DNA of 62,869 nucleotides from Candidatus Brockarchaeota archaeon. GTDB taxonomy: Archaea; Thermoproteota; EX4484-205; JAAOZO01. The notes beneath the pieces were generated by a model. That model was not told the origin of the DNA. It saw nothing but the letters and a program-made list of their open reading frames with translations, and did no database searches. The stretch is from positions 1 through 62,869 of the forward strand of contig JAFNIV010000007.1 of assembly GCA_017601145.1 (NCBI GenBank). Reading direction: 5' to 3'. Positions within the stretch are counted from its first letter, which is position 1; the number at the start of each line of letters is the position of its first letter. This document shows positions 461 through 31,772 of the stretch, one piece after another. The position numbers and the translations under genes are program-made.

Positions 461-2461
461 ATGTCTGTTAAAGAAGAAGTAAAATCCGGATTTACAAAAA
501 GAGCGATAATAGTCTCAGTAGTATTAACCATCCTAGGCTTCATAGTAAATACACTAACTTGGTGGGGAAATGGAATTTCTCTTGAACCTTTCTATGCCGG
601 TAGAGTTGGCTCAGGAATTTATCCCCCTTATGGGCTTGTGTTTTTACTAATGCTAGCTTCAGCTTGGTTAGGAGCACAAGGCTTCTCACTACAAGAAATA
701 GCTGTAATCACTACCGTAACTTTTGTAGCAGCTGATTCTCCATTTGTTGTAGGTGCCTTCTTGCAGTTCATCTTCGCGGGCACTTACTTAGCGCAGTCTA
801 ATCCAAATGTTGGAGCTTTGTTAAGCTTCTATCCTTCCTTCTGGACTCCTGGTCTAGATAAGTTGAACATTATTAATTCTGCATGGCAAGGAGGTGCAGT
901 AGTTCCATTAGAAACTATTCTTCCATATCTTACATTTTGGATCTTTATGGCATTCCTTTACATGGTTTTAATGCTCTTTCAGGCATCAATAATTCAGAAG
1001 CAGCTAGTAAAGAAAGAAAAGCTTCCGTTCCCAACAATAATTCCAATTAACGAACTATCTAATTCAATGAGAAAGGGAACGTTTACTACATTACTCAAGA
1101 ATTGGTGGTTCTTGGGCTCTCTCTTATTAGGTTCTTTCATTGGACTTATAGCATCTTTAAATTACATCTTAAAGTTTACTACAGTCTTCTTTGCTTATGG
1201 TCAATTTTACATGACACCACTTGCCAATTTCCTTACTTCAATATCTCAGAGTACAGTTGGAGGTTGGTGGATGTTGATTCCAGCCGATGTTGCAATTTTC
1301 TTCTTAGCTCCGTTAGACATATTGTATTCAATAGTAATATATGTTTTCTTATTACAAGTAGTATACCCTCTAGTTTTACTAAGTATTGGTGCGATAACTC
1401 CTGGTACTTATCCTGATTGGGGGGGACCTTTTCCATGGGTGCCTTTTAGCGTATATTGGGTACCTCTTGCACTTGGTATTTGGACAATTGTAATGGGTTA
1501 TAATACTTATAAAGAAAGCATATCTAAGGCCTTAAGTAAAACTTCAGAAACTGGAGAATATTCAGACTCCCTACTCTGGGGTGGTTTTGCGGTAACCATA
1601 CTTGTTTGGTTAGCAATTTGGGTAATATTCGGCGCTAATGTTATACTTTTGTTAATCTCTCTCATAGTTTGGCTAGTATATACACTTGGTATAACTGCAG
1701 TACATGGATACAGCGGAACCTGGGTTTCAGTTTATGGAGCTGGTACAACTGGAATGATTACTTGGGCTTCTGGCTCATACCTTGGAGTTTATCACATAGA
1801 CGGCACTGCTGCTAACACTAAGACTGCATGGGCAAACATGGCTGCTACAGCTATAACTGCAGATATGGGTGGCGTAATACAACAAAATACCCACCAAACT
1901 TGGGCTTACACTTCAACCTACGCTTTAGTAGATTCTACAAAGTGCAGAGACAAAGACATTTTTAACGCTCAATTGTTAGGCATTTTGCTAACTGCGCTTA
2001 TTGCAATGCCATTTGGGCTTTGGGTTGCGTTTGGAACTGGAGTAGGTAAACTTAAGGCTTGGGGCTTGGGCTCTGGTGCCAATATTACAGGTTGGCAAAT
2101 ACCTTTTGTTGTCTCAAACAGTACACCTCCTGCTGGCTATAACTTATATCAAGCAATCCTTGCTTTTATTCTGGTCGGAGTACTTATGTTTTTAAGAGCA
2201 AAATTTGCTTGGTTCTTCTTTAGTCCATACGCTATGTTCTTTTACTCTGGGATGTGGCTGTTGAATGCAGGAATAGCATTGGTAATAAAGTTAATATTTC
2301 TAAAGGTGCTAGGTGTAAAGTCATATGAAGAAATGGGTGTTCCTTTAGCAGTAGGCTTTTTAATAGGCCTTACTCTCTTTGCTACAATAGTAATGGGCCT
2401 AAATGCAATAATTTCATTGTTCGTAGCATCTCCAATCTCTGTTGGTCCAACAGGAGCATAA
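461..2461 (+). CDS. Multi-TM membrane protein, DUF6785/OPT-like transporter, subfamily A
   Basis: 666 aa, many TM segments; C-terminus (LRAKFAWFFFSPYAM...GVKSYEEMGVPLAVG) matches the paralogue at 31773-33869. Confidence 0.7.
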   Translation: MSVKEEVKSGFTKRAIIVSVVLTILGFIVNTLTWWGNGISLEPFYAGRVGSGIYPPYGLVFLLMLASAWLGAQGFSLQEIAVITTVTFVAADSPFVVGAFLQFIFAGTYLAQSNPNVGALLSFYPSFWTPGLDKLNIINSAWQGGAVVPLETILPYLTFWIFMAFLYMVLMLFQASIIQKQLVKKEKLPFPTIIPINELSNSMRKGTFTTLLKNWWFLGSLLLGSFIGLIASLNYILKFTTVFFAYGQFYMTPLANFLTSISQSTVGGWWMLIPADVAIFFLAPLDILYSIVIYVFLLQVVYPLVLLSIGAITPGTYPDWGGPFPWVPFSVYWVPLALGIWTIVMGYNTYKESISKALSKTSETGEYSDSLLWGGFAVTILVWLAIWVIFGANVILLLISLIVWLVYTLGITAVHGYSGTWVSVYGAGTTGMITWASGSYLGVYHIDGTAANTKTAWANMAATAITADMGGVIQQNTHQTWAYTSTYALVDSTKCRDKDIFNAQLLGILLTALIAMPFGLWVAFGTGVGKLKAWGLGSGANITGWQIPFVVSNSTPPAGYNLYQAILAFILVGVLMFLRAKFAWFFFSPYAMFFYSGMWLLNAGIALVIKLIFLKVLGVKSYEEMGVPLAVGFLIGLTLFATIVMGLNAIISLFVASPISVGPTGA

Positions 2462-2511
2462 AGGAAAGCTTTTTATTTTTTATTTTTTATTTTTACGGCG
2501 ATAGTGGAGAA

Positions 2512-5500
2512 ATGTTTTCTTCAAGTAGTACTAAAACAAAATCCTTCTTAGCATGTATTTTACTCGTTACTTTTCTTGTGTCTGTTACTAACTCTTTTGT
2601 AAAGGCTCAAGGTAACAAACCAAACGAAATAAAAATAGACTTAAACGAAATAAGAAAAACAGTTGATACTCTCATTAATTTTAAGTCAAGATTTTCGGGC
2701 TATGATGGATTTTATAAGACTACAGGATATATTCTAAACTTTACTAAATCTTTAGGGTTGCCATATGAGCTTGTAAACTTTACTCAAGTAGTGCCTCTTG
2801 ATACTGGTTCATATATATTAGTTGGAAATCAAAAGATAAGAGCATATTCTCTTTATCCAAACTTTGTAGCATTGGGACCTAATACAATTACTGGAAATCT
2901 AGTTTATGTAAAAGATGGGAGTTTCCAAGAAATCAATGGGTTAAACCTTAATGATAGTATTGCCTTAATCAACTTTAACTCGGGTAAAAATTGGATTAAT
3001 CTACTCCAACTAGGTGTTAAAGCTTTTATATTCATTGAACCTAACAACACTAACAAATACGAAGCATTATCGAAGATTTCTTCTTCTCCATTAAACATAA
3101 TCAGAGTTTATGTAACTCAAGAAGATGCAAAAATACTTCTAAACTACGTTGGGAAGGAAGTTCAAATATTTAATAACATTAAATGGGAAAACGTTATTAT
3201 ACCTGATATCCTTATAAAAGTTAAAGGCGAAGAAGAAAAAAATGTAATTCTTTTAGTCGTTCATTATGATTCTGCTTCTGTAGTGCCTTCTATCTCTCCA
3301 GGTGCTAACGATGCTGTTAACGTAGCATATGCGTTAGAGCTTCTAAAGAGCATAGTGGAAAACAACATAAAACCAAAAAATTCAATCTGGTTTTTGTTTG
3401 TAGGAGGCCATTATCAAGCTTTAAGTGGACCTAGAATGTTTGTAGAAAAATATTTGTTTAACAATCCTTCTATAGGAACTTCTATTTTTCCCTATTTGGC
3501 AATTGGCATAGACATTTCAGATGGTTCGCCAAAAGTTAATCCAGTTGTCTCAGGCTATTTTTATTCTCTTGCTTCATCTTACTTGCAAAATAAGATTTCG
3601 ACACTAAGTTTTACAGTAACTAGCTTAATAAATAGTTTAAAGCAAAATAACCCTGATCTCTATAACATAGTTAGAAGTTATGAGCTTGATAGCCTTACTG
3701 GATTTCAAGTTTCAGGCTCTTCTCCTTCGTATCCTTCTGGTTTTTCCTTTAGGTACATACTTGATACAGAACCATTTGAAGCTGCAGGTTTGTTGTCATT
3801 TTCTTTTGTAACTCTCTACGATCTTAGAAATAGTTTCTTTACACCTGGTGATATTAGTGTTAATTATGGCAATGTAATTCCTCAAATAGAGTTTATAAAC
3901 TACGTTTTAAGTGGTATAATATTAAGTCCAATAGAAAAGATCTACTCAGGTAGTTGGAGTGATTTAACCCCTACAAGGATAGGGTCTGCCTATACCAGCA
4001 TTGGTTTCTCAACGTTAAACGTTGTTTCTGTCGTTTACGATCCTACAAAACCTGGTTTGTACTCTGTAGTAAACGGGTCTATAGTAACTGTTTCAAATTC
4101 TTTGGATCCCTTTAGCCTAATGATAGCTAAATCAAATTCAACTGGAGTTGCAACTTTCTATGGTCTTAGACCCGCAACAGAGGCTGCGACTACTGTATAT
4201 TACTCGGTTAAGTCTTTTGTTTTATCTAAAAATAACGAAATAATCTTTGCTCCTGATTCCGGAATTCATGGATCTCAAGTTTATCCTAGATCTGTATCTC
4301 TCTTATATTATCCCACAACAGTAAGGACTGTTCTTTTTAAGTCTAGTTCCATAGTTATTCCAAAAATAATAATTCCTAATACTCTTCAGGCTCCATATTC
4401 TTCTAGCTCTCTTTTTGCTTCTTCTAACTCTTATTCTTCAGTTCTTATGTCGTATGCCGGTTATGAAACGCCAATTCCTGTACAACTTTCATCTTTTAGT
4501 CTACCAAATTATGCTCCCCTAGAATCATGGCATTTTGAGTTTGACCCATTTACTTCAAATCTAGTATTTTTTGCTCCAACAAATGTAACTTTTGGCCTCG
4601 TTGTTCGTGTATCTTCACTTGGTTATTTATATGGAATTTTCGTGAACTATTCAAAAGAAACAGATAGTGAAAATGGGTATTATTTTAGTAATGCTGGTTC
4701 TCTCATGATTGTAGACAATGGCTTACTTGGAGTGCTTCATGATTCTTGGTTAATTTCTGAAGAAAGATACAAGAAACAAATTTCTGCTGATGTAATTAAC
4801 CCTGTTACAATGTCAGAAATTACAACTGGTTTTGCACTCATTAATAGTTCAGTTCGCAGTCTCTTAAACAAAGATTTTTCTTCTAGCGTTTCTTTGGGGG
4901 TTGTTGCTTCTGGTTTTTCGTTGAAAGCTTATTCTTCCACCCTTTATGTCCTTAAAGATGCTGTAGGTAGCGTAATAATAACATTTGCACTAGCCATTCC
5001 ATTTATTTTGTTGTTTACTTCATTAGTTTATGGCTTAACAAGAGGATATAAAAGTATAATGTTTACTTTCTTATGTTCTGCTCTGGTTTCTTTAGCTTTA
5101 GCAGTTTCTCATCCTGGATTTAAGCTTGTAGCCAATGTTCCTGCTATATTTGTTGGCGTTCTGCTTGTTTCTCTTGTTATACCTGCTCTTGTTTTTCTAT
5201 TTTCTAATTTTTCTGAAGGTTTGAGCGAGCTTAGAAAAAAAGTATTCGGTGAACACTTTCTCGAGAGAAGTGGGTTTGATGTTTCTTTATCAGCAGTAAC
5301 AGTAAGTGTAGGAAACATGAGAAAACGTCCATTAAGAACTATTTTAACTTTAACTTCTATTGTTCTCATAAGTTTTGCATTAGCTTCATTAACTTCTTTT
5401 AGCGAAGTTAAAGTTTTTAACGTTATGGAAAGTAAAACAAGCTATCCATTAAATGGGATATTAATAAAAACTCCAAATTTTTATCCTCTTGATAAAGAAG

Positions 5501-7020
5501 CCATAAAACTTCTTCCACTGTTTCTAACTAATTCAAGCGTGTATTTTCCAAGATTTTGGGTGTACTTCCCTGCTAGCTTTCAACAATCTGGAGTACCTGG
5601 TACGATTAATGTATTGTTTAACAATAAATCTACTGGAATCTATGCTGCTGTTGGAATAAATACACAAGAAATCTTAGAATATTCTTATTTGTATAAGTCG
5701 CTGTTTAAAACAAATGGTTCTCTGTCTATTAACTACTCTTTAGCTTCATTACAAAATTCAGTTTTTATTCCATATACAATTGCTGGCTACTTAAACTCCT
5801 CAGGTGATTTAAGACTTGGCTCCTGCTTATCTATTGATGGAATTCAGTATATCCTAGCCGGTGTTTATAACGAAACAGAAGCACTAAGAAACCTAAAAGA
5901 TGCAGATGGCTTTTCAGATTTGCTTCCGATAGATTATTCGGTTTCAACGCAACAACAGTCTTTTTCGTTTAGTCAAATGTCCTGGAGCTCAATAGTAATT
6001 GTTAACTCAAAGTCTGTCGAGCATGTTCCTGAGGCTTGTTTAACAAGTGTTTTTATACCTGTAAAAGGTTCTTTTAATGAAAAAAGGCTAATTAATTCTG
6101 TTGAGTCATTATTCACAGCTTACGATAGTCTAAATATCTACTTGGTATCAAATGGTACAGTTTACACCTTCTCGAAAAGGAATGCTCAATCTATTTTTGG
6201 ATTTCAGTACATTATTATTCCTTTAATAATAGCAGGACTAATTACAATGTCAACTGTACTTGGAGGAATAATGGAGCGAGTAAAAGAGTCAATGATATAT
6301 AGTAGTGTTGGTCTTGCTCCATTACAAATAGGTTATATGTTCTTAACAGAAAACGTTGTTTATGCTATAGTTGGAGGCGTTCTCGGGTATCTCTTAGGAT
6401 TGTTGTCTTCTCATTACTTAAGACTTTTTGGAATACTTGAAAATGTAGGGATTAACTACTCATCTTCTTCTGTAATAATTTCAATTGGTATAGTTATAGC
6501 TCTAGTTCTTTTGGCTTCAATATATCCTATTCATCAAGTTGCTTTACTTATAACGCCTTCTCTAGAAAGAAAATGGCGAATAACGACAAAACCAAAGGGG
6601 GATGAATGGGAGGTCCCAATTCCCTTTAGAGTAAAAGAAGAAGAAAGCTTACTTGGTCTAATTTACTTCCTTAAAGAGTATCTCTGGAACAAACGTGCAG
6701 AAAGGACAGGAAGTTTCACAGTTGAAGAATTGGGATCTTCTAAAGAAGAGTCGGGATATTCTATTTCAGCAAAAGTTTGGTTAGCTCCATATGAACAAGA
6801 CATTCATCAAGAAGTATTTTTAAACTTCACAAAAAGTAAGACTGAACAACGCTATATTACTAGCCTTAAAATATTAAGGATTTCTGGACCTTATGAATCA
6901 TGGGTTAGGTTTAACTATTCTTTTGTGGATGAAATAAGGAAGCAACTGTTGGTCTGGAATTTGATGAATCCAGAGCAATCAAAAATTTATATTCAAAAAG
7001 CAAAAGGTGAACTAAAATGA
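2512..7020 (+). CDS. Secreted M28-peptidase-like domain fused to FtsX/MacB-type permease
   Basis: 1502 aa; signal peptide; M28-like HYDS...PGANDAVNVA...GGHYQALSGP; FtsX-like MRKRPLRTILT plus C-terminal TM cluster; paralogue at 24367-28965. Confidence 0.75.
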   Translation: MFSSSSTKTKSFLACILLVTFLVSVTNSFVKAQGNKPNEIKIDLNEIRKTVDTLINFKSRFSGYDGFYKTTGYILNFTKSLGLPYELVNFTQVVPLDTGSYILVGNQKIRAYSLYPNFVALGPNTITGNLVYVKDGSFQEINGLNLNDSIALINFNSGKNWINLLQLGVKAFIFIEPNNTNKYEALSKISSSPLNIIRVYVTQEDAKILLNYVGKEVQIFNNIKWENVIIPDILIKVKGEEEKNVILLVVHYDSASVVPSISPGANDAVNVAYALELLKSIVENNIKPKNSIWFLFVGGHYQALSGPRMFVEKYLFNNPSIGTSIFPYLAIGIDISDGSPKVNPVVSGYFYSLASSYLQNKISTLSFTVTSLINSLKQNNPDLYNIVRSYELDSLTGFQVSGSSPSYPSGFSFRYILDTEPFEAAGLLSFSFVTLYDLRNSFFTPGDISVNYGNVIPQIEFINYVLSGIILSPIEKIYSGSWSDLTPTRIGSAYTSIGFSTLNVVSVVYDPTKPGLYSVVNGSIVTVSNSLDPFSLMIAKSNSTGVATFYGLRPATEAATTVYYSVKSFVLSKNNEIIFAPDSGIHGSQVYPRSVSLLYYPTTVRTVLFKSSSIVIPKIIIPNTLQAPYSSSSLFASSNSYSSVLMSYAGYETPIPVQLSSFSLPNYAPLESWHFEFDPFTSNLVFFAPTNVTFGLVVRVSSLGYLYGIFVNYSKETDSENGYYFSNAGSLMIVDNGLLGVLHDSWLISEERYKKQISADVINPVTMSEITTGFALINSSVRSLLNKDFSSSVSLGVVASGFSLKAYSSTLYVLKDAVGSVIITFALAIPFILLFTSLVYGLTRGYKSIMFTFLCSALVSLALAVSHPGFKLVANVPAIFVGVLLVSLVIPALVFLFSNFSEGLSELRKKVFGEHFLERSGFDVSLSAVTVSVGNMRKRPLRTILTLTSIVLISFALASLTSFSEVKVFNVMESKTSYPLNGILIKTPNFYPLDKEAIKLLPLFLTNSSVYFPRFWVYFPASFQQSGVPGTINVLFNNKSTGIYAAVGINTQEILEYSYLYKSLFKTNGSLSINYSLASLQNSVFIPYTIAGYLNSSGDLRLGSCLSIDGIQYILAGVYNETEALRNLKDADGFSDLLPIDYSVSTQQQSFSFSQMSWSSIVIVNSKSVEHVPEACLTSVFIPVKGSFNEKRLINSVESLFTAYDSLNIYLVSNGTVYTFSKRNAQSIFGFQYIIIPLIIAGLITMSTVLGGIMERVKESMIYSSVGLAPLQIGYMFLTENVVYAIVGGVLGYLLGLLSSHYLRLFGILENVGINYSSSSVIISIGIVIALVLLASIYPIHQVALLITPSLERKWRITTKPKGDEWEVPIPFRVKEEESLLGLIYFLKEYLWNKRAERTGSFTVEELGSSKEESGYSISAKVWLAPYEQDIHQEVFLNFTKSKTEQRYITSLKILRISGPYESWVRFNYSFVDEIRKQLLVWNLMNPEQSKIYIQKAKGELK

Positions 7021-8942
7021 GTCTAGAAGATAAAAATTCAAAGTCGAAAGAAAAAGTTGGAATTCCTGGTTTAACTGTAGTTTCAGTGATGGCAGTTCTC
7101 TTTGGTTTAATTACACTTAGCCCTGCCATAATTTATCTGTACTTAGCCGTAGGATCTCTTGGAGGTACTGAACGGTTTATTCCAGTGTTTGTAACTCTTC
7201 TACTATTTACTGAAGTAGGAAGAATAGTTAGAAGATATGTGACTACTCAAGAAGCTTACGTAATTTATTTTATGCTCGAAATATTTGCACTTTGGCTTGC
7301 TTCAGGAGGTTTGTTTGGAGGTTTTATAATAAACTACTACTACCGTAATGCGCCGTATACTGTAATGTATGGTATAGCTAGTAAGCTTCCATACTGGTTT
7401 TCTCCCCCTTTAAACAGCCCAGGACCTCTAAACAGAACTTTCATTTCTCCAGACTGGTCGATTCCAATACTAGTTGCTTTAATTTCGATGTTTTCAGGTT
7501 TGTTGATAGATTTTGGACTTTCATTTATAACAACAATGGTTTACATTGATATCGAAAACCTGCCATTTCCAGTTGCACCAATCGATGTTCAGGCAATTTC
7601 TACACTAACTGAAAGAACTCCCGAGAAGATAATGTACTTTTCATTTGCAGCAATAATTAGCTTAATTTACGAATTTCTTATTTATGGCATTCCTAATTTA
7701 ACAGATGCCTTTCTAGGTACAAGAATTGTTTTTATTCCATACCCTTGGGTGGATTTAACCTCAATAGTAGAACGTTTCTTACCTGGTGCTATTTTTGGCC
7801 TAAGTACAGACATCGCTGCTTATGTAGTAGGGTGGCTTATTCCATTTAACGTTTGTGTTTGGTTATTCATTGGCTCTATATCTATTTGGGTTTTTGGGAA
7901 CTTCTTAGCGTTGAACGTTAAGTTACCATATTTCGAACTTTGGCAAAAAGAATGGATGCCTGGTGTTAGTATGCAATGGTGGTATCAAAGAGCAACTTAT
8001 GACCTTTGGGCAAGTCCACTTGTTGGACTTACAATCGGACTTAGTTTAGCAGTTTTCGTAAAATCTTCAAGAAGTATAGTGAATGCCTTTAAGTCACTTT
8101 CTAGACTATCAAAGGAGAAACTTAAGACTTCTTATCTTCCACTTCATTGGATAATTGCGATGATGGTAATTGGAAGTTTAACAGGCTTTGCCTTAGCTAC
8201 AACTTTAGTTCCAAACCTCTGGTTTGTTTGGCTTATATCTTGGATTGTCCTTCCTCCATTACAAGGTTTCTTAGGCGCTAGAGCTGTTGGTGAGACTGGA
8301 CTTACAGTACAAATACCATATGTTCAGCAAGCCCTTTTAATCCCATTCACACCTCCTGGTGATCCAGTACCATGGGTTGTTCCACTGAATGCTTCAAGTT
8401 CAGCTGGTATAATAACCCATAGAATTAAAGTTGCTAAACTTCTTAACGTAAACCCGCTAGACTATTATAAAGCCTATGTAATATTCTTTCCTTTAGCGAT
8501 TATTGTTAGTTTTATCTTTTGGTCAATCTTTTGGTCAATGGCTCCGATTCCTTCTTCTTTTTATCCATGGACTACAATACAATGGCCTGTTAGTTCGCTA
8601 TACTTTTCTCTCTGGGTTGTTAGAGCAGAGCAAATCTTTAAAGTAGACCTCATAGTCGTAACATCGATCATAGCATTTTTTGCTTCTTTCCTATCAAACT
8701 ACTTTACGTTCTTTTCTCCAATAGGTTTGCTTTCTGGCATGGGTACATTGCCGCCCTCAGCAACTTCTTTGTTTATAGGAGCTTTGCTAGGTAAGTATCT
8801 TGAAAAAAGAATAGGCAAAGAGAGATGGGACGTTCTAAGATCTGTCTTGATCGCAGGAATCTTTGCAGGGTTAGCTTTAGCTTTAGCGATTGCTATGGGT
8901 CTAACTATACTAGGGAAAATTATAACTTCAAAGCCTTTCTAG
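7017..8942 (+). CDS. Multi-TM membrane protein, DUF6784/DUF6785 OPT-like transporter, subfamily B
   Basis: 641 aa; shares LSPAIIYLYLAVG and other blocks with the 29080-31038 product; 4-nt overlap with the upstream gene. Confidence 0.7.
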   Translation: MSLEDKNSKSKEKVGIPGLTVVSVMAVLFGLITLSPAIIYLYLAVGSLGGTERFIPVFVTLLLFTEVGRIVRRYVTTQEAYVIYFMLEIFALWLASGGLFGGFIINYYYRNAPYTVMYGIASKLPYWFSPPLNSPGPLNRTFISPDWSIPILVALISMFSGLLIDFGLSFITTMVYIDIENLPFPVAPIDVQAISTLTERTPEKIMYFSFAAIISLIYEFLIYGIPNLTDAFLGTRIVFIPYPWVDLTSIVERFLPGAIFGLSTDIAAYVVGWLIPFNVCVWLFIGSISIWVFGNFLALNVKLPYFELWQKEWMPGVSMQWWYQRATYDLWASPLVGLTIGLSLAVFVKSSRSIVNAFKSLSRLSKEKLKTSYLPLHWIIAMMVIGSLTGFALATTLVPNLWFVWLISWIVLPPLQGFLGARAVGETGLTVQIPYVQQALLIPFTPPGDPVPWVVPLNASSSAGIITHRIKVAKLLNVNPLDYYKAYVIFFPLAIIVSFIFWSIFWSMAPIPSSFYPWTTIQWPVSSLYFSLWVVRAEQIFKVDLIVVTSIIAFFASFLSNYFTFFSPIGLLSGMGTLPPSATSLFIGALLGKYLEKRIGKERWDVLRSVLIAGIFAGLALALAIAMGLTILGKIITSKPF

Positions 8943-21448: not shown

Positions 21449-21673
21449 ATGTGCCTAGGCATTCCTGGAAAAGTTGAAGTTATAAAAGGAAAAGAAGCAG
21501 TTGTTGATTTAGGTGGAGTTAAACGAAAAGTTAGACTTGACCTTGTTGAAGACTTAAGTCAAGGCGATTATGTTATTGTTCATGCAGGTTTTGTCATTCA
21601 AAAGTTAACTAAAGAAGAAGCCAAAGATTTACTTAATGCAATAGAAGAACTCGGTGAAGCCATGAATTGGTGA
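21449..21673 (+). CDS. hypC: Hydrogenase maturation chaperone HypC
   Basis: MCLGIPGKVEVI start; the upstream-extended ORF start at 21410 is unlikely. Confidence 0.93.
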   Translation: MCLGIPGKVEVIKGKEAVVDLGGVKRKVRLDLVEDLSQGDYVIVHAGFVIQKLTKEEAKDLLNAIEELGEAMNW

Positions 21674-22737
21674 CAGAAAGCTTTAGAGATCCAAGCCTTT
21701 CACAGCTATTCTTAAAGAAAATTTCAGAACTAAAACCAGAAGGAATAAACCTAATGGAAGTTTGTGGAACTCATACAGTAAACATATCAAGATTCGGCAT
21801 AAGGAGAGTACTACCTAAAGGATTAAGAATTGTGAGTGGGCCCGGTTGTCCTGTTTGTGTGACTTCAGACTCAGACTTATTCAAATCTTTTCAAGTTCTA
21901 GAAAAAGATGTAATTCTCTCTACGTTTGGAGATATGATAAAAGTACCACTTAAGCGGAAAACTCTTTTAAATTTAAAGGCAGAAGGAAAAGATATAAGAG
22001 TTGTTTATTCTCCTTTTGATACTATAAATTTCTTAAACAACAACAAAGAAGTTGTCTTTTTTGGAGTAGGGTTTGAAACTACATCACCAACAGTTGCAGC
22101 CTTATTAGATTACGTTGTTGAACATAATGTAAGAAATTTTTCAATTATTTCTTCTTTTAAGCTAATTCCTCCTGCACTTAAAGCGTTACTAAGCTCAAAA
22201 GACTCTAAAATAGATGGATTAATTTTACCAGGGCATGTCAGTACAATAATCGGTACCAAACCTTATGAATTCATCGTGAAAGATTATGGAATACCCTCTG
22301 TAATTACTGGTTTTGAGCCTGTAGACATACTAGTATCTATCTATTTGTTGATTAGGATGATTAAGAGTAAGAAACCGTTGCTAGTTAATGCGTACCCAAG
22401 AAGTGTAAGACCTGAAGGAAATAAAAAAGCGCAGAAACTCTTGTATAAATACTTTGAAGTTTCAGATGCTAGTTGGAGAGGGTTTGGATATTTAAGAGAA
22501 AGTGGTTTAAAATTAAAGGATTCCTTTTCAAATTATGATGCAGAACTAAAGCTTGGTATTAAGCCTGAAAACATAGATGAACCTCCTGGTTGTAGGTGTG
22601 CTGATGTTGTAAGAGGTATAATAACTCCTCCAGAGTGTCCTCTATATGGAAAAGTTTGTACTCCAGGAAATCCAATTGGTCCTTGTATGGTTTCTTCAGA
22701 AGGTGCTTGTGCTGCTTACTACAACTATGGTGGTTAA
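21667..22737 (+). CDS. hypD: Hydrogenase maturation factor HypD
   Basis: EVCGTHT, GPGCPVCVT, FFGVGFETTSPT, PPGCRCADVVRG. Confidence 0.95.
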   Translation: MVTESFRDPSLSQLFLKKISELKPEGINLMEVCGTHTVNISRFGIRRVLPKGLRIVSGPGCPVCVTSDSDLFKSFQVLEKDVILSTFGDMIKVPLKRKTLLNLKAEGKDIRVVYSPFDTINFLNNNKEVVFFGVGFETTSPTVAALLDYVVEHNVRNFSIISSFKLIPPALKALLSSKDSKIDGLILPGHVSTIIGTKPYEFIVKDYGIPSVITGFEPVDILVSIYLLIRMIKSKKPLLVNAYPRSVRPEGNKKAQKLLYKYFEVSDASWRGFGYLRESGLKLKDSFSNYDAELKLGIKPENIDEPPGCRCADVVRGIITPPECPLYGKVCTPGNPIGPCMVSSEGACAAYYNYGG

Positions 22738-22739
22738 TT

Positions 22740-23744
22740 ATGGAAATTAACTTAGAACATGGAGCTGGCGGAAAACTTACGCATGAGCTTTTTAATTCTA
22801 TTTTTTATAAGGCATTTAAAAACAAAATTCTTGAAAAGGCTGGCGATAAGGCAATTTTGAGGTTTGGCTCTACTAGAATAGCTTTCACAACAGATGCATT
22901 TGTTATGGCTCCAAAAAAAGTAAGTGGATGCACCATTGGAAAACTTAGTGTAACTGGAACTGTTAACGATTTACTTACATGTGGTGCAATACCTATGTAT
23001 CTCTCAGCTTCATTCATAATTGAAGAAGGTTATCCTATAGCAAACCTAAGCGAAATTGTAAGAGATATGTCTGAAACAGCAAAAATTTCAGGAGTTTCAA
23101 TAGTAACTGGAGATACAAAAGTTGTTGAGAGAGGTAAAGCAGATGGAGTTTATGTTATAACTTCTGGAATAGGAAAGGTTATAAAAAATTCTAATGTTTC
23201 TGGGTCTAATGCTGAGCCTGGAGATGTCATCGTGGTCTCTGGTCCTGTGGGTACTCATGGAACAGTAGTTATGTTAGCTAGAGGAGAGTTTGGGTTGTAT
23301 TCAAGTGTTTCGAGTGATTGTTGCCCACTCAATGATCTAGTTATTCCTTTAATTAAGAAGTATGGGAAAAAAATAAAGGTAATAAGAGACCCAACTAGAG
23401 GTGGCCTTGCTACAACGTTAAATGAAATTGCTAAAGAGTCGAAAGTTGGAATGGTTGTTGAAGAATCAAAAATTCCTGTCTTGGAAGAAGTTAAGTCTGC
23501 ATGCGAAGTTTTAGGAATAGACTTTTTGTCAATGGCCAACGAAGGTATAATGGTATTCATAGTGGATGCAAAGATTAAGGAAAAATTCTTAAAAGATTTA
23601 AGAAATAATCCAAAGGGGAGGCTAGCTTCAGTAATAGGCAAGGTTGTAAGTGATAAAGAGAAAAAGGTAGTACTTTCTACTTCTGTAGGAGGGGAAAGAA
23701 TTTTAGATATGGCTAAGGGACTTCCCTTACCCAGAATATGTTAA
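22740..23744 (+). CDS. hypE: Hydrogenase maturation factor HypE
   Basis: HGAGGKLTHEL, AIR-synthase fold, C-terminal ...PLPRIC; ATG at 22740 preferred over the listed 22635. Confidence 0.94.
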   Translation: MEINLEHGAGGKLTHELFNSIFYKAFKNKILEKAGDKAILRFGSTRIAFTTDAFVMAPKKVSGCTIGKLSVTGTVNDLLTCGAIPMYLSASFIIEEGYPIANLSEIVRDMSETAKISGVSIVTGDTKVVERGKADGVYVITSGIGKVIKNSNVSGSNAEPGDVIVVSGPVGTHGTVVMLARGEFGLYSSVSSDCCPLNDLVIPLIKKYGKKIKVIRDPTRGGLATTLNEIAKESKVGMVVEESKIPVLEEVKSACEVLGIDFLSMANEGIMVFIVDAKIKEKFLKDLRNNPKGRLASVIGKVVSDKEKKVVLSTSVGGERILDMAKGLPLPRIC

Positions 23745-24366: not shown

Positions 24367-27300
24367 CTAACTTATATTCTTTTTTGCTTTGTTTATTAAT
24401 CTTTGTCTTTCTTCAGGAGGTAAAGACCTCCAGAGAAGCAATTGTTTCCGCACATCATCTATGAACCAGTAGTTTGAATTAATCCAAACATCTTGTGGTC
24501 CAGTAAGTTTATTTATGAACAAAGTAAGGCTATACTTCTTTTCCTCTTTACTTTCAAGTTCAGTTACTTTAAAAGTAACATCCTGAGTAACGTTTGCTTC
24601 ATATGGTGCGATGCTGAATGTTATTTTTATTTGATTATTCCTGTAATCTAAGGGTTGCATTGCTCTAACAATAGATATTGGTCTAACAGCTCCCGCCCCT
24701 TCATAAAATTCTCTTAGGTATTCCAATATACCAAGAGCTTCTTCATAAGTTATAAAGCTAACTGGCATTGGAACCTCCCAATTATCTTTTGAAGGTTTTG
24801 TTGGTGGTTTCCATTTTCTTTCTAGAGATGGGGTTATTACTCTGGAAGCTATATACGATGGGTATGCTGAAGCTAATAAAGAAGTTAAAATTATTACAAC
24901 TAAAGCTACCATAGTAAATATAGATGCAAAATTAACATAACCAAGCTCTTTTGGAAAGACATTTAAATAAACCATTAAAGTATTTGCTGCAAAACCAGCT
25001 AAGTATCCTATTAAACCTCCAACGATTGCATAAACCACTGTTTCAACAACAAATAGTACACTTGTAGCAAGTGGTGAAAGCCCAACAGCACTAAGTACGT
25101 AAATTTCTTTACTTCTTTCCTTTAAGTTACCAAGTAAAGTAATCATTACATTTAATGCTCCAAGTAAAGCTAAAATTTGTACGGTTTCCATTCCAACGAA
25201 TGAATAAGCTACTACTTGTGACATTTGGTATGGTTTTCCATTTTGAGAAACATAAACAATGCTATTTGTGGTATAAGCGATAGGTGTAAACATAGATGCT
25301 ATATCTTCTGATTTTTGTTTTGGTATAATACTTACTTCAGCAATATATCCGCCAAGCTCCATAGCTTTACTAAATGGAATAACCAATACTTGTGCCATTG
25401 ATAAATGTGGAACCGATCCTTGAGCTGCTTGAGAAGATACAGGGAAAACTGCAAGTTGCCCATAATAAATTCCATTTACTGGAGCTATCGGATATCCATC
25501 AATGTCTTTCAGGTTATCAAGTCTTGATGCATTATAAATTCCAGCAACTTTAAGTTTTAGTCCAAATACATTTATGTTATCTCCAACTTTTACACTTAAG
25601 TTATTTGCAAGACCATTAGATATCAAAGCCCAATTTTCTGTATTGTTTAGTAGAGAGCTATCAAAATTATTCACATATGGTAATATATTGATGTATACAT
25701 CATCTTTTGTCAGTCCTAGTGCTGCTGAAATTGAAGCGTTATTTGTTGACGAGTAAATAGGAGTTTGAAATCCTATTGTGAGTTTTGATTGTGGGTAGTA
25801 CCAAGCTCTAGGTAAAACTGTGGCATTTTTTCCAGCATAATATTTAATAGCATCAAGTAAGTAATCTGAAACAATCGCAGGTGGGATACCAATTCCATTC
25901 TTTACTAAAACTCCATCATAACTAGTTGTATAGCCATATTTTGGAACTAATCTTACAGATGTATAAGCTGAAACTGAAGTTAACGAAGTAAGAGAAAAGG
26001 CCATAACCGCAATTGTAACTACCGTAAGAATAGTTCTAAATGGTCTTTTTCTCATTTCTTCTACTGAGAAAGAAGAAGCCGTTGTAACTGTATCAAACAC
26101 TACAGATTCTGTTGTATGGTACCCTAAATATCTGTGTTCTATACTTTTTCTTACTTTTTCTGCTTCTCCTCCTATTACCCAAATAGTCAATAACAAGAGA
26201 AAAGTCATTGCTGTTCCAAGTAATCCAAGGTAGACGTTACTCATTATTGAAAAAGCTGGATGAAGAAAAGACAAAAATGCAATAAGTATCGCGGCAAATA
26301 GTCCAATTGAAATTACCCTTTTTCTTCCTTCTTGATGCAAAGTGAGTTTTTCTAAGAAGAAAGCCCCCAATATCAATAATGGAAACATTATCATTATTGA
26401 TTTTGCTGCATCGTTTATTAATGGCATAACTTCTCTGCTATAAGCTGTGTAAGCGAATGTAAAGAATGGAATTGTTGCAGAATATCCTGAGTAAAGTTTG
26501 TTTTCGCTAAATAACTTTGTCGTCTTGTTGTAAAGTATTTCTGCCTCTTTTATCGTTATATCTGCGCTAATAGTTCCTGTTTCTTTTTCCTTGAATTTTT
26601 CATACCTATCTTTAGAAATGTAAAATAAGTCTTGTGCAGATTTATATAATGTAAAGTAAATGTAGTTATTTTTATCAGAAGAAAATCCAATTCCTTCAGG
26701 ATTTGCTGAGCTAGAGTTTGTTAAAATCAACCCATTCGTTCCTTGAGTTACAACGACTACTACAAATTTAATTCCAGGCGAAGTCCATACTAAGCCAACT
26801 GGTTCATAGCCGTTGTAGTAAGATCCATAGTTTGGAGGTAAGCTTTTTGTTTGAGCGTCAAACGGTAGTATAGCTGCCATTGAAAATCCCCACCAATTGT
26901 ATCCACCAAGCCTTGGATCTTGTATTGAAGGTGTGGCTAAAGTTCTTGGATCTACTATATCGTACAATGTAGTTGTGTTTGCTTTCATAACTACTATTGT
27001 AAAGTTTTCCACTGGATGAATTGGCATAAGTGTGCTTGAAAAGTATTGCATTGCTAGCATTCCATTATTTGGTGCTATTACTATTTGTCCTGTTTCTGGA
27101 TCAGTTTTCCACCCTTGTAATATCCAAGGATAAGTTATAGTTGCAGTATTAGCTCCATAAGGTCTTGCTGCTTGGGCTATTCCGTGTATTACAAATGTAC
27201 CATTTTCTCCAGACTTCACTATAATTGTTCCTAATTTATAAGTCGAAGGAGCTACTCTTGCCGTAACCAATACATCTTTTATAGGTGAGAACCAACCACC

Positions 27301-28965
27301 ATTGGTTTCATTGTAAATTACTACTTTACCATTTATCGTAATAAATCCTGGATACCCTCTGATACTTTCAGTACTAAACCAAGTAGGTCGTAGTGTTGAT
27401 CGATCTGTTACGGTGTTCCTAAGTTGATCATCATTAGCTAATTGACTTATTATAAAAAATAAAGTTGTTAGTTCTGGTGATATTTTTTTTAAATTTGCAT
27501 ACTCCGAATCATCTATAGGTGCTCCTACGTAATTTCTACTTGACCATGCTGAAGTTATACTGAAAGCTATAATGCCACTCATAGAAACTACTTCAGAATC
27601 AAGCATATATGGATAGGGTTCAGTACCCCAAAATTGTTGATAAGAAGTATAAAACAAGAAAAAGTTATTTGCTATGGTTGAACCTTGTCCTATTCTCTTT
27701 TCATTTATTAAAAATTGTCTAAGTTCACTTGAGTTTAAATATACTAAAAGTCTATTGTAAACAGGAGTGAGTCTAGTTGGAAATCCTCCAGAATGTATCG
27801 ACGCTCCTCCATAAAAATTAAAGAAACTAGATTGTAGCATTTGAAGACCATAGCTATCGCTCGAAAACATATCAAGTCCTACAAACGACCATATCGTTTT
27901 TTTACCGTTCATAATATCATTTGAATATATATACCTATATGTGAACTCTCTGGCTCCTGCTAAAGCTTCCCAATGTCCTGAAGTAGCAACTAACCAAATA
28001 CTGTACTTTGGTGGATTGTTTTTAAAATACTTCGCTAGTTCTAGTAGTAAAGCAATGCCTATTGCATCGGCCTTACTATTTGCTAGGGCTGGAGCTATTG
28101 CCCAAGCATCGTAATGTGCTGAAATTATTATTATATCGTTAGGGTAAGTGGTTCCATTTATCTTTAAGATTATATTTTGTGCGGTAACCTCTTTATAGCT
28201 CATTCTAGACTTAACAACTATCTCATTTGCTTCTTTTAGAATTTCTCCATCTTTTGCTTGTACGATCAACCTTGGAAAATACAATGGCGTACTGAGATAC
28301 TTGCTATCGGTTTCTAGATATGTTGTCTCATTTGGTTGTATAAATATTACTCCCTTTGCTCCAAATTTTGCAGCATTTATCCAGTTGTACATTGAATTAT
28401 AGTCCATAAGAACAAAAGCTCCACTTATGTTCTTTCCTTCAAAATTTTCTATTTTTCCATCACCTACATACACTATCTTTCCTAAAGTTCCATTTTCTGG
28501 TAAGTTACACGTTTGTATACCATTTGGCCAAAGAGTGTATGCTTTAATCGTTTTGTTGAATGGAGAAATAACATTGATCGTAGCTTCTTCTTGGATTGGT
28601 ACTAGTAAACTGTAGTTTTGAATTTCAGTACTGTTATAGCCATAAATACCATTAAGATAGCTAACTATAAAATCTCTCGTTTTATAGTAGCCTTCATATC
28701 CTGTTACTCGCGAACCAAACGAAGAAATATCATTCACGATTTTTTCAACTTCAGAAACATTAAATTGTGCTGTTACATTCGAAAATTGGCTTCCTATTGG
28801 TGCATCATTTGTAAATAATTCGTTACTATTATTCTGGGAAGCGTATGCTTTGTTTGAGATCGATGGTAGTGCAGTTGCTAGAAAGAGTGCCGCAAAAAGA
28901 AAAAACAATCCTCTTCTTCTAATTCTTCTAATATTAATATTTTTAGTTAACTGCACTATTTTCAT
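24367..28965 (-). CDS. Secreted M28-peptidase-like domain fused to FtsX/MacB-type permease
   Basis: 1532 aa; signal peptide; SAHYDAW, SKADAIGIALLLELA, SGHWEALAGAREF; MRKRPFRTILT; same C-terminal domain as the 2512-7020 product. Confidence 0.75.
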   Translation of the reverse strand: MKIVQLTKNINIRRIRRRGLFFLFAALFLATALPSISNKAYASQNNSNELFTNDAPIGSQFSNVTAQFNVSEVEKIVNDISSFGSRVTGYEGYYKTRDFIVSYLNGIYGYNSTEIQNYSLLVPIQEEATINVISPFNKTIKAYTLWPNGIQTCNLPENGTLGKIVYVGDGKIENFEGKNISGAFVLMDYNSMYNWINAAKFGAKGVIFIQPNETTYLETDSKYLSTPLYFPRLIVQAKDGEILKEANEIVVKSRMSYKEVTAQNIILKINGTTYPNDIIIISAHYDAWAIAPALANSKADAIGIALLLELAKYFKNNPPKYSIWLVATSGHWEALAGAREFTYRYIYSNDIMNGKKTIWSFVGLDMFSSDSYGLQMLQSSFFNFYGGASIHSGGFPTRLTPVYNRLLVYLNSSELRQFLINEKRIGQGSTIANNFFLFYTSYQQFWGTEPYPYMLDSEVVSMSGIIAFSITSAWSSRNYVGAPIDDSEYANLKKISPELTTLFFIISQLANDDQLRNTVTDRSTLRPTWFSTESIRGYPGFITINGKVVIYNETNGGWFSPIKDVLVTARVAPSTYKLGTIIVKSGENGTFVIHGIAQAARPYGANTATITYPWILQGWKTDPETGQIVIAPNNGMLAMQYFSSTLMPIHPVENFTIVVMKANTTTLYDIVDPRTLATPSIQDPRLGGYNWWGFSMAAILPFDAQTKSLPPNYGSYYNGYEPVGLVWTSPGIKFVVVVVTQGTNGLILTNSSSANPEGIGFSSDKNNYIYFTLYKSAQDLFYISKDRYEKFKEKETGTISADITIKEAEILYNKTTKLFSENKLYSGYSATIPFFTFAYTAYSREVMPLINDAAKSIMIMFPLLILGAFFLEKLTLHQEGRKRVISIGLFAAILIAFLSFLHPAFSIMSNVYLGLLGTAMTFLLLLTIWVIGGEAEKVRKSIEHRYLGYHTTESVVFDTVTTASSFSVEEMRKRPFRTILTVVTIAVMAFSLTSLTSVSAYTSVRLVPKYGYTTSYDGVLVKNGIGIPPAIVSDYLLDAIKYYAGKNATVLPRAWYYPQSKLTIGFQTPIYSSTNNASISAALGLTKDDVYINILPYVNNFDSSLLNNTENWALISNGLANNLSVKVGDNINVFGLKLKVAGIYNASRLDNLKDIDGYPIAPVNGIYYGQLAVFPVSSQAAQGSVPHLSMAQVLVIPFSKAMELGGYIAEVSIIPKQKSEDIASMFTPIAYTTNSIVYVSQNGKPYQMSQVVAYSFVGMETVQILALLGALNVMITLLGNLKERSKEIYVLSAVGLSPLATSVLFVVETVVYAIVGGLIGYLAGFAANTLMVYLNVFPKELGYVNFASIFTMVALVVIILTSLLASAYPSYIASRVITPSLERKWKPPTKPSKDNWEVPMPVSFITYEEALGILEYLREFYEGAGAVRPISIVRAMQPLDYRNNQIKITFSIAPYEANVTQDVTFKVTELESKEEKKYSLTLFINKLTGPQDVWINSNYWFIDDVRKQLLLWRSLPPEERQRLINKAKKNIS

Positions 28966-29079
28966 TCCTAATGCTCTTCATATTTTTTGTTTCTCTTGAA
29001 TATAAAAATCTTGCTCTTGATTTGTTTGTTTAAAAAGCAAAGTTTTTAAGTACATCGAATGGAATATTAACCAACGGAA

Positions 29080-31038
29080 TTGTGTGCTTCTAATAGCATA
29101 GACTCTGGAAACGATATTCGAAATGTTAAATTTGAAGAACTTCAGTCTGGATTAACTTGGAGAACAATTCTTGCCATGATTTTTGCAGGGCTTATCTTTA
29201 TGCCTGCAACAATTTATCTCTATCTTGCTGTTGGAGGAACTGCTGCAACAGCAGCTACCTATGTTACAGTTATACTTTTCGAAGCTCTCTCAAGGTTTTA
29301 TGGAGCTAGGTTATCAAGGCAAGAACTTTTCATACTTTATACTGTCATTGGAGGTATTGGAGGAGCAGTTCCCATGTTTTACTGGTTGGTGTATAGGGCT
29401 TACTACGTTCAAAGCTCAATAAGCGTTGCATTTTCTTTGAATGGTGTTCCAATAAGAAGTCTTGTTCCTATATGGATGGCTCCTAAGTATGCTTCTCTTC
29501 TTGTTCAAGGTCGAACTTTACTTACTCTTGAATGGTTACCTGCAATACTCACCACTGTCACGATGGCTATACTTGGTACAATTAGCGAATTGTCTTTAGG
29601 CATGATGATTTCGTATTTCTATGTTGAGGTTGAGCCATTAACGTTTCCTTTTGCTATAGTTGATGCGTCGATAATAAACACGCTTTATGACAGGAAAGAG
29701 TCTGATATGTCGTATTTCTTAATAACTTTAATAACTGGAGCGATATATGGCTCATTTTACTATTTGTTTCCTTTAGTACTTGGTCCACAGGCACAAATAA
29801 TTCCATTACTTTGGATTGACTTTACTCCTTATACTCAATATTATTTGCCTGGAGCTATACTTGGCGTTGCTACAGATCCTGCTTCTTTTCTTTATGGAAT
29901 GGTTTTGCAACCTTCACTCACAGTAATAATGTTTCTAGGTTCGTTAGTTACATGGGTTTTTGGAAACACTTTAACTATAACAACTTTTAGGCAATTTTCT
30001 CCAGAGTGGACAAGAGAATACTTTCAAGGAATGAGTATATCTTCGATTGTTCAACGGGCAGGATTAAGACTTTGGTTATCTCCATTTATTGGACTTGGTT
30101 TTGGAATTGCTTTATTCTTAATGATTACACTTCATAGAAAAATTATAGATGGATTTAAAGTTTTCTATAAGGCTTCTTCCTCCTCCTCTTCAAGGTTAGG
30201 GTACCCTTCTTTACCTGTTTTGGTAGCGCTTTTTTTATTAGGAACGGGTGGTAGTGTACTTCTTTATAGCTTTGTACTAGTTCCGCAAGTACCAGTTTAC
30301 CTTCCAATTCTTGTCTCTATGGTTCTAAGTTTTTTGTTGGCTATAGCGAACGCAAGACTTTACGGTGAACTCGGAATAACAATCAGTACAGATCAGCTTT
30401 ACAACGTTTGGAAAGCTACCCTCTATGCAACAAGTTATACTGGCTATCCTGGTTGGATCTACACTCCTGTTGTTCCTGGAAGTGGAGCTCCATGGTATGC
30501 GCAAGAAACAAAGGTTGCTCTGATGACAAAGACGAAACCTATAGATCTTTATAAAGCAGCTCTTGCTTCTTTAGTTATTACGGCAGTTTTCGGGCTATTG
30601 TTCATGGAAGCTTTTTGGAGAATGTCTCCTATTCCCTCAACAGCATTCCCATATACGATGCTTCAATGGCCAATTTATGCCGTTAGTGACTCTTTGTTTG
30701 CAACCCGACAAATTGCAATTAGGTACAACCAAATTGGTTTAGGTATAATAGTAGCACTTGTTGCTGGCTTTTTAGAACTTGTTCTTAGAAGAATAGGTAT
30801 TCCGTTTAGCAGTGTTGGTTTCATAGGTGGTATGATGTCTCTTCCTCCATATACTTTCATGGTAATGATAATGTCATTCATTGGAAACTATGTTTTTGCA
30901 AACGTTCTTGGAAAAGAGAAATGGAATTCAACTAAAGGTATAATTATCGCTGGATTTGTTGTCGGGGAAGGCATAATCGTTTCAGTTAGTGTAGCAATAA
31001 CTTTGCTTTCAAAAGCAACATGGCTTTGGCCTTGGTAA
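29080..31038 (+). CDS. Multi-TM membrane protein, DUF6784/DUF6785 OPT-like transporter, subfamily B
   Basis: 652 aa; FMPATIYLYLAVGG, PSTAFPYTMLQWPIYAVSDSLF parallels the 7017-8942 product. Confidence 0.7.
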   Translation: MCASNSIDSGNDIRNVKFEELQSGLTWRTILAMIFAGLIFMPATIYLYLAVGGTAATAATYVTVILFEALSRFYGARLSRQELFILYTVIGGIGGAVPMFYWLVYRAYYVQSSISVAFSLNGVPIRSLVPIWMAPKYASLLVQGRTLLTLEWLPAILTTVTMAILGTISELSLGMMISYFYVEVEPLTFPFAIVDASIINTLYDRKESDMSYFLITLITGAIYGSFYYLFPLVLGPQAQIIPLLWIDFTPYTQYYLPGAILGVATDPASFLYGMVLQPSLTVIMFLGSLVTWVFGNTLTITTFRQFSPEWTREYFQGMSISSIVQRAGLRLWLSPFIGLGFGIALFLMITLHRKIIDGFKVFYKASSSSSSRLGYPSLPVLVALFLLGTGGSVLLYSFVLVPQVPVYLPILVSMVLSFLLAIANARLYGELGITISTDQLYNVWKATLYATSYTGYPGWIYTPVVPGSGAPWYAQETKVALMTKTKPIDLYKAALASLVITAVFGLLFMEAFWRMSPIPSTAFPYTMLQWPIYAVSDSLFATRQIAIRYNQIGLGIIVALVAGFLELVLRRIGIPFSSVGFIGGMMSLPPYTFMVMIMSFIGNYVFANVLGKEKWNSTKGIIIAGFVVGEGIIVSVSVAITLLSKATWLWPW

Positions 31039-31059
31039 AACTTTTTTAAATATCCCTAG

Positions 31060-31755
31060 TTACATTGAGCCAAGACTTACTATGTAGTTTCTTAGTTCAT
31101 AGCTGATCTTATTCATTGTGTCAAATAGTTTTCTTAAATAAGCTGGGAATCTCCATTCGTCTCCAGGTCCTTTTTTCGCGGTTATTAGCCAGCAAATTGT
31201 AAGAGGATCAAGCTTAATATAAGCTGTACTATTGCTAAGGTCATAAAACTTAAATTCAAACTCGTTTGTCATGCTATCTTTCATTAGTTTCATTACATTT
31301 TCTTTCTTCAAAAACGAAAGAAGCTTGTCATTTCCTTCCTGATTTTTTCCGTTTATGCTGAATTTTACTCTCTTGAATGGAAATGAAAATAACTCTAAAG
31401 TAATGCTTGTTTCTTTAAATATTTCGAAGAGTTTTTTTGAAACGTCTCCTTTATTGTCATCAAATGTTTGAATCAAAAAAACAAAATTCCATACATAATC
31501 AACACTAATTCCAATTCGTTCTCTGAAGAAATACATTTCTTTAAAGTTAGCACTTGTTGGCTTTACTATTATAAGCCCTCCAGCATCTTTCCACTCTTTT
31601 ATTTTATCTCTTAATGCACTTATTACCATTCTCTCTTTTTCTGACCAAATTTTCTCGTTTTTCATAATTTTATTATGAAATAGAAAACTTAATATAAAAG
31701 TTTTTTCTTTTAAATATTTAAGTATTTTCGAAAAATTTATATTATACCGCCACAT
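31060..31755 (-). CDS. Uncharacterised protein (true start probably M at ~31665)
   Basis: ORF sits antiparallel between two transporter genes; no recognised family. Confidence 0.6.
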   Translation of the reverse strand: MWRYNINFSKILKYLKEKTFILSFLFHNKIMKNEKIWSEKERMVISALRDKIKEWKDAGGLIIVKPTSANFKEMYFFRERIGISVDYVWNFVFLIQTFDDNKGDVSKKLFEIFKETSITLELFSFPFKRVKFSINGKNQEGNDKLLSFLKKENVMKLMKDSMTNEFEFKFYDLSNSTAYIKLDPLTICWLITAKKGPGDEWRFPAYLRKLFDTMNKISYELRNYIVSLGSM

Positions 31756-31772
31756 ATATTATATGACTAAAA

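Follow-up and report, generated by a model that had tools for sequence, protein, structure and literature searches.

Archaeal loci joining a pseudo-peptidase FtsX protein to paired OPT-family transporters: candidate substrate-specific uptake modules

Type VII ABC (ATP-binding cassette) systems, e.g. MacAB-TolC, LolCDE, FtsEX-EnvC, BceAB, and YbbAP-TesA, have permeases with MacB-type features (PMC5985334, PMC12646458), namely an FtsX-type transmembrane (TM) unit, an extracellular porter-like domain, and a coupling helix; YbbAP-TesA also joins such a permease with a hydrolase fold (PMC12646458). Here we describe a locus at the start of a 62,869-nucleotide contig from a Candidatus Brockarchaeota archaeon (JAFNIV010000007.1; the window, i.e. 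the whole stretch that was analyzed), in which a permease of the same build is fused to an M28 peptidase fold (M28-FtsX) and is encoded between two OPT-like transporters. M28-FtsX differs from the systems above by its ectodomain, which reads as a dead M28 peptidase, by three extra TM segments and a cytosolic C-terminal domain, and by a locus that lacks an ATPase gene and is almost always tied to OPT transporters; the candidate partner ATPases, encoded elsewhere, are likewise of a LolD-type clade. Group II energy-coupling factor (ECF) transporters, in which EcfAA'T is common to many S-components, provide a precedent for a shared energizing module and a similar layout of one or two ATPases, one small membrane subunit, and scattered ATPase-less receptors (PMC7755397). 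The membrane parts found in the present analysis are instead of FtsX and OPT type (no search with an ECF profile was made), and the OPT transporters are separate proteins.

The trio consists of the following genes:

461 to 2461, + strand: OPT-A, OPT-like membrane protein of 666 aa (Pfam DUF6785, 7e-10)
2512 to 7020, + strand: M28-FtsX, 1502 aa, pseudo-peptidase ectodomain and type VII (MacB/FtsX-type) permease (Pfam Peptidase_M28, 7e-9; FtsX, 3e-12)
7017 to 8942, + strand: OPT-B, OPT-family transporter of 641 aa (Pfam OPT, 1.5e-8)

All three open reading frames (ORFs) lie on the + strand, and the second and third share 4 nt (ATGA at 7017-7020). An earlier note on this DNA had described an M28-FtsX fusion between two OPT-like transporters in one co-directional block with such an overlap; the ORF coordinates and the Pfam assignments both agree with that description. 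We tentatively propose, with a confidence just short of an even chance, that such loci encode substrate-specific uptake modules, each composed of an M28-FtsX receptor and an OPT pair, and that these modules are powered in trans by a shared type VII ABC core.

The genome of origin is archaeal, 1.62 Mb in size, and 86.5% complete. It contains seven M28-FtsX paralogues of about 1480-1540 aa, with 27-32% identity to the window copy, and all seven OPT-B paralogues adjoin M28-FtsX genes. OPT-A is clear at six of the seven loci, the seventh showing a weakly similar fragment cut by the contig edge. The order of the OPT-A (A), M28-FtsX (M), and OPT-B (B) genes varies among loci (A-M-B, A-B-M, M-B-A, or divergent), and their proximity therefore reflects more than one inherited operon. 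A scan of GTDB genomes retrieved 79 M28-FtsX loci, all archaeal, from Brockarchaeota, Bathyarchaeota, Thermofilaceae, Calditenuaceae, Guaymas 'Thermoprotei', and a few other lineages. Recurrence of the neighbourhood in other genomes had been set beforehand as the point on which the earlier proposal would stand or fall: among the 45 well-flanked loci (≥4 kb on both sides of the M28-FtsX gene), OPT-B lies ≤600 bp from M28-FtsX in 38, and both OPT types are present in 36, while the five without any OPT are of the Calditenuaceae type or similar to it. In a survey of 250 Thermoproteota genomes, OPT-B (E ≤ 1e-40) was found in 33 of the 35 genomes with M28-FtsX vs none of the 215 others; one of the two M28-FtsX genomes lacking OPT-B is 70% complete. 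The trio arrangement is not due to chance.

Three Calditenuaceae-type loci (L113, L116, and L123) have M28-FtsX followed by two conserved ORFs of 339 and 296 aa without a Pfam match, and an OPT-A/OPT-B pair sits elsewhere, next to a 1072-aa FtsX protein (L228). Two further M28-FtsX loci (L172 and L182) occur in metagenome-assembled genomes (MAGs) labelled Alkanophagales and Njordarchaeum, for which gene transfer and mis-binning are two candidate causes. Recoding of in-frame TAG inside ORFs was considered and rejected, TAG being a plain terminal stop in the loci inspected.

Within the M28-FtsX gene, we distinguished the following parts:

2545 to 2601, + strand: N-terminal hydrophobic segment, signal anchor or TM1 (aa 12-30; hydropathy)
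2605 to 4941, + strand: extracellular part (aa 32-810), comprising an M28 aminopeptidase fold that bears a PA-type insert and, C-terminal to it, a beta-rich and helical stretch (AlphaFold, Foldseek)
3409 to 3414, + strand: His300-Tyr301, replacing the catalytic Glu and metal-ligand Glu of active M28 enzymes (alignment to 2ek8 and 54 homologues)
4942 to 5202, + strand: three extra TM segments (aa 811-897; hydropathy, modelled helices)
5338 to 6522, + strand: FtsX/MacB-type unit with a TM segment (943-961), a porter-like extracellular domain, further TM segments (1234-1337), and the coupling-helix motif (Pfam, profiles, model)
6559 to 7017, + strand: conserved C-terminal cytosolic domain (aa 1350-1502; model, marginally START/Bet v1-like)

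Hydropathy predicts TM1, the ectodomain, three extra TM segments, a four-TM FtsX unit with its porter-like domain, and a cytosolic C-terminus, in that order. The AlphaFold model of residues 32-850 has a mean pLDDT (predicted local distance difference test) of 88, and its best PDB matches by Foldseek are PA-domain M28 aminopeptidases (2ek8, E 5e-22), then transferrin receptor and glutamate carboxypeptidase, so the peptidase-type fold that structure prediction had been expected to reveal was recovered. When aligned to 2ek8, the pair formed by the catalytic and metal-ligand Glu reads GHW or GHY, and no Glu occurs at the catalytic or adjacent metal-ligand position in any of 54 dereplicated full-length homologues. 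Because neither residue is left in the whole set, the M28 domain is, as judged from sequence, a non-catalytic pseudo-enzyme, and the idea of a secreted peptidase that processes peptides is not supported. The first metal His is retained in 37/54 homologues and the bridging Asp is mostly replaced by Glu; the late His of the site is present in 0/54, in a column that depends on the alignment. The domain resembles non-enzymatic M28 members (transferrin receptor, nicalin, and nicastrin) in its fold, PA-type domain, and lost active site, but only M28-FtsX is fused to an ABC permease. The pseudo-peptidase ectodomain probably acts as a receptor.

Direct profile matches of the M28 domain include transferrin receptor and nicalin (E about 1e-9 for nicalin); such membrane-tethered, dead archaeal M28 domains may bear on the origin of nicastrin/nicalin/GPAA1-type proteins in eukaryotes.

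The permease half (residues 845-1502) was modelled at a pLDDT of 86.5 and matched the structures of MacB, LolE, HrtB, and FtsX (E 1e-13 to 1e-3); the FtsX domain anticipated from structure prediction is hence present, as a MacB fold (E 1e-13). Between TM2 and TM3 of the FtsX unit lies a coupling helix, ERxREIxIYSxVGLSP, with Arg and Gly invariant in 52 sequences, and the retention of this motif argues that an ATPase still docks on M28-FtsX. For the cytosolic domain, START/Bet v1 ligand-binding folds were marginal structure matches.

Nearly no LolD/MacB-type ATPase gene lies next to M28-FtsX: the nearest is 4.5 kb away, at one of about 87 loci, and this survey led us to reject an ATPase within 10 kb as a general rule. 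The genome of origin encodes three LolD-type ATPases, one of them with an ordinary 386-aa FtsX, while the ATPase termed A' adjoins a 204-aa mini-FtsX, which matches the M28-FtsX profile. Mini-FtsX proteins (~200 aa) lack the ectodomain. Relatives of A' and of a further ATPase, A, fall into one clade (support 100/99), in which two branches parted long ago, the pattern that a heterodimeric A/A' pair would be expected to show. In the 250 genomes, this clade is present in 33/35 with M28-FtsX vs 12/215 others, and in 42/45 with any match to the M28-FtsX model vs 3/205 without; mini-FtsX is found in 41 of 45 ATPase-positive genomes vs none of the 205 others. As these genomes are related, Fisher p-values overstate their independence, and contrasts within families are safer evidence; two families (f6 and f30) each have members holding all parts and members holding none. 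Direct linkage is occasional: two closed genomes (G050 and G154) carry M28-FtsX, OPT-A, OPT-B, a GH57 protein, both ATPases, and mini-FtsX within about 16 kb, the ATPases and mini-FtsX being about 7 kb from the trio, and in G115/G216 an ATPase is about 5 kb from OPT-B, OPT-A, and a large FtsX. The ATPases, mini-FtsX, and M28-FtsX co-occur in a way that would be difficult to account for if they were not functionally linked, though nominal p-values are too small. The earlier statement that no LolD/MacB-type ATPase is encoded nearby therefore holds locally, none adjoining the trio, but not functionally, given the specific pair and mini-FtsX that co-occur elsewhere in the genome; the search for a cognate ATPase that the earlier note advised pointed to this A/A' clade, a candidate partner present in 33 of the 35 M28-FtsX genomes. 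In the genome of origin, two ATPases and one mini-FtsX stand against nine large FtsX proteins.

OPT-A and OPT-B are remotely related to each other (hhalign 99.8%); OPT-B belongs to the OPT family (PF03169) by its profile match (1.5e-8), and OPT-A through DUF6785/DUF6784 and the hhalign match to OPT-B. The family takes up oligopeptides, with metal chelates as the other cargo, and we know of no OPT protein that requires a partner of the type VII ABC kind. In the loci described here, members of two subfamilies are encoded as a pair, and OPTs with such a partner were not found in reports. A sequence search of the PDB for OPT structures found none.

Genes near M28-FtsX loci encode GFO/IDH/MocA oxidoreductases, URO-D-like proteins, GH130, TrmB sugar regulators, and proteins with carbohydrate-binding modules (CBM), as well as GH2, GH3, and GH57. 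The first five families are all absent from the top of a random control of equal size; this control covers the top 25 families and gives upper bounds only. Order-level orthologues of the first window locus adjoin GH2, BNR-repeat, and, further away, GH4 genes; the window locus itself adjoins genes that read by eye as F420 biosynthesis. Peptidases are not recurrent among the genes neighbouring M28-FtsX loci, although an M20-like one, assigned by eye, lies near a second trio in the window. The neighbours point to carbohydrates rather than to the peptide or glycopeptide first suggested, and glycan breakdown products, with different paralogues for different ones, are the most likely substrates. By analogy, the Sus/PUL (polysaccharide utilization locus) systems of Bacteroidota also comprise many paralogous uptake units, each with its own glycan enzymes; no homologous parts were seen, and the carriers studied here are not expected to own a bacterial outer membrane.

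Two more giant FtsX proteins of the same genome, of 1694 aa (C14; L055:6663-11744) and 1791 aa (C22; L056:6624-11999), carry GH2 sugar-binding and GH2 Ig-like domains with no match to the GH2 catalytic TIM-barrel; for the C14 protein, OPT-A is two genes away.

In the mechanism that we propose, an archaeal uptake system would be made up of substrate-specific units, one per locus. M28-FtsX would be the membrane receptor, exposing its dead M28 domain on the outside of the cell and spanning the membrane with its type VII ABC permease half, and OPT-A and OPT-B together may form the actual path through the membrane. A shared core of the ATPases A and A' and mini-FtsX, encoded elsewhere, would couple in trans to every large FtsX receptor, in the way that a single energy module is common to group II ECF transporters; M28-FtsX and mini-FtsX may form a heterodimer on A/A', in complex with the OPT pair. 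Movement of the receptor driven by ATP would capture the substrate, presumably a glycan product, or release it to the OPT pair, in the direction of import. It is possible, but rather doubtful, that this is a new class of transport machine, an ATP-assisted importer in which many pseudo-enzyme FtsX receptors have one type VII (mechanotransmission) ABC core in common in trans and each drives or gates a heteromeric OPT secondary transporter. A categorically new status would require that ATP hydrolysis in the FtsX core drives OPT transport.

Several observations weigh against the proposed uptake modules. Type VII ABC systems usually do not carry substrates across the membrane. Calditenuaceae-type M28-FtsX does not adjoin OPT, the glycan substrate is based on neighbours only, and several of these (the M20 peptidase and the F420 genes) are unrelated. 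In the genome of origin, A is an orphan beside ABCE1 and A' lies beside mini-FtsX, so that the coupling in trans is inferred. Furthermore, 12 genomes have the ATPase but no M28-FtsX, 9 of which match the model through other large FtsX proteins. In G227 (7% contaminated), M28-FtsX and OPT-B are present and the ATPase clade is missing; the MAGs of L172 and L182 lack that clade too.

Other explanations share part of this evidence. M28-FtsX and the ATPase might sense an extracellular ligand and gate or activate the OPT pair in a BceAB-like or FtsEX-like manner, with no hand-over of substrate. Dead enzyme domains are common sensors. The FtsX fold and coupling helix are retained, and type VII ABC systems for the most part do their work outside the membrane and control partner proteins (PMC5985334, PMC12646458); we nevertheless regard this role as unlikely, given that the loci show no recurrent histidine kinase or other signalling partner and that one M28-FtsX per OPT pair suggests direct joint work. 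The similarity of M28-FtsX to LolE, MacB, and YbbP, a C-terminal domain weakly like lipid-binding START folds, and the coupling of a type VII ABC system with a hydrolase in YbbAP (PMC12646458) would suit a lipid, glycolipid, or envelope system that extracts membrane-embedded molecules in the style of LolCDE or YbbAP-TesA and passes them to or from OPT. Such a system appears quite unlikely, as the neighbours belong to glycan catabolism, with no lipid genes, and the presence of seven divergent copies in a genome speaks for many different nutrients.

A further, slightly less probable alternative is that M28-FtsX merely binds substrate for OPT-A/B as a passive receptor, while the ATPase pair and mini-FtsX serve only the other large FtsX proteins of the same lineages, e.g. 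the GH2-FtsX proteins that occur in the genome of origin. The 12 genomes with the ATPase clade but without M28-FtsX fit this alternative, whereas the retained coupling-helix motif, the direct linkage in G050/G154, and the 33/35 co-occurrence favour ATPase coupling. The version in the earlier note, in which a secreted peptidase processes peptides or glycopeptides for import by OPT and no ATPase is involved, is very improbable: its M28 fold is real, the OPT family imports oligopeptides, and the second trio has an M20-like peptidase (by eye) in its vicinity, but the catalytic Glu and its neighbour are gone in 54/54 homologues, the ATPase pair co-occurs with M28-FtsX, and the neighbours are glycosidases.

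To our knowledge, no named system has this composition, each part coming from a known superfamily. Literature searches for DUF6785 and for M28 together with FtsX returned nothing relevant in open-licence full texts, which is weak evidence of absence; within that literature, the earlier failure to match the locus to a named system still stands. The carriers include hot-spring archaea and many uncultured, polysaccharide-fermenting archaea (Brockarchaeota, Bathyarchaeota, Thermofilaceae, and Calditenuaceae MAGs) that have trios or parts of them, often in several copies. In the description of Brockarchaeota, extracellular peptidases were too unusual for substrate assignment (PMC8065059); if the proposed uptake modules are real, these 'peptidases' would be uptake receptors, and type VII ABC proteins would reach from envelope maintenance to nutrient import. 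DUF6784/DUF6785 proteins would also gain a role, and archaeal glycan uptake would become directly testable. If, further, the system were the new class of transport machine considered above, an ATP-assisted, receptor-coupled nutrient importer would do for archaea what Sus or ECF systems do for bacteria.

The second trio of the window spans positions 24367-33869:

24367 to 28965, - strand: second M28-FtsX paralogue, 1532 aa (Pfam, homology to the window copy above)
29080 to 31038, + strand: second OPT-B paralogue, its gene oriented divergently to that of the second M28-FtsX (homology search)
31060 to 31755, - strand: accessory cytosolic protein of 231 aa, without a Pfam family (homologues at ~20 M28-FtsX/OPT loci)
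31773 to 33869, + strand: second OPT-A paralogue with a DUF6784 C-terminus (Pfam, homology search)

The accessory protein represents a conserved soluble protein of ~225 aa encoded beside or between the M28-FtsX and OPT-A genes, here and at ~19 further loci; a relationship to the C-terminal cytosolic domain of M28-FtsX was rejected, as a comparison of hidden Markov models gave no similarity. Elsewhere in the window, a HypE-like ORF as called (22635-23744) overlaps a HypD-like ORF (21667-22737) by 103 bp, and the true HypE start is probably further downstream. A membrane pyrophosphatase is encoded at 42240-44219, with the sodium-translocating model NF001960 as its top NCBIfam match.

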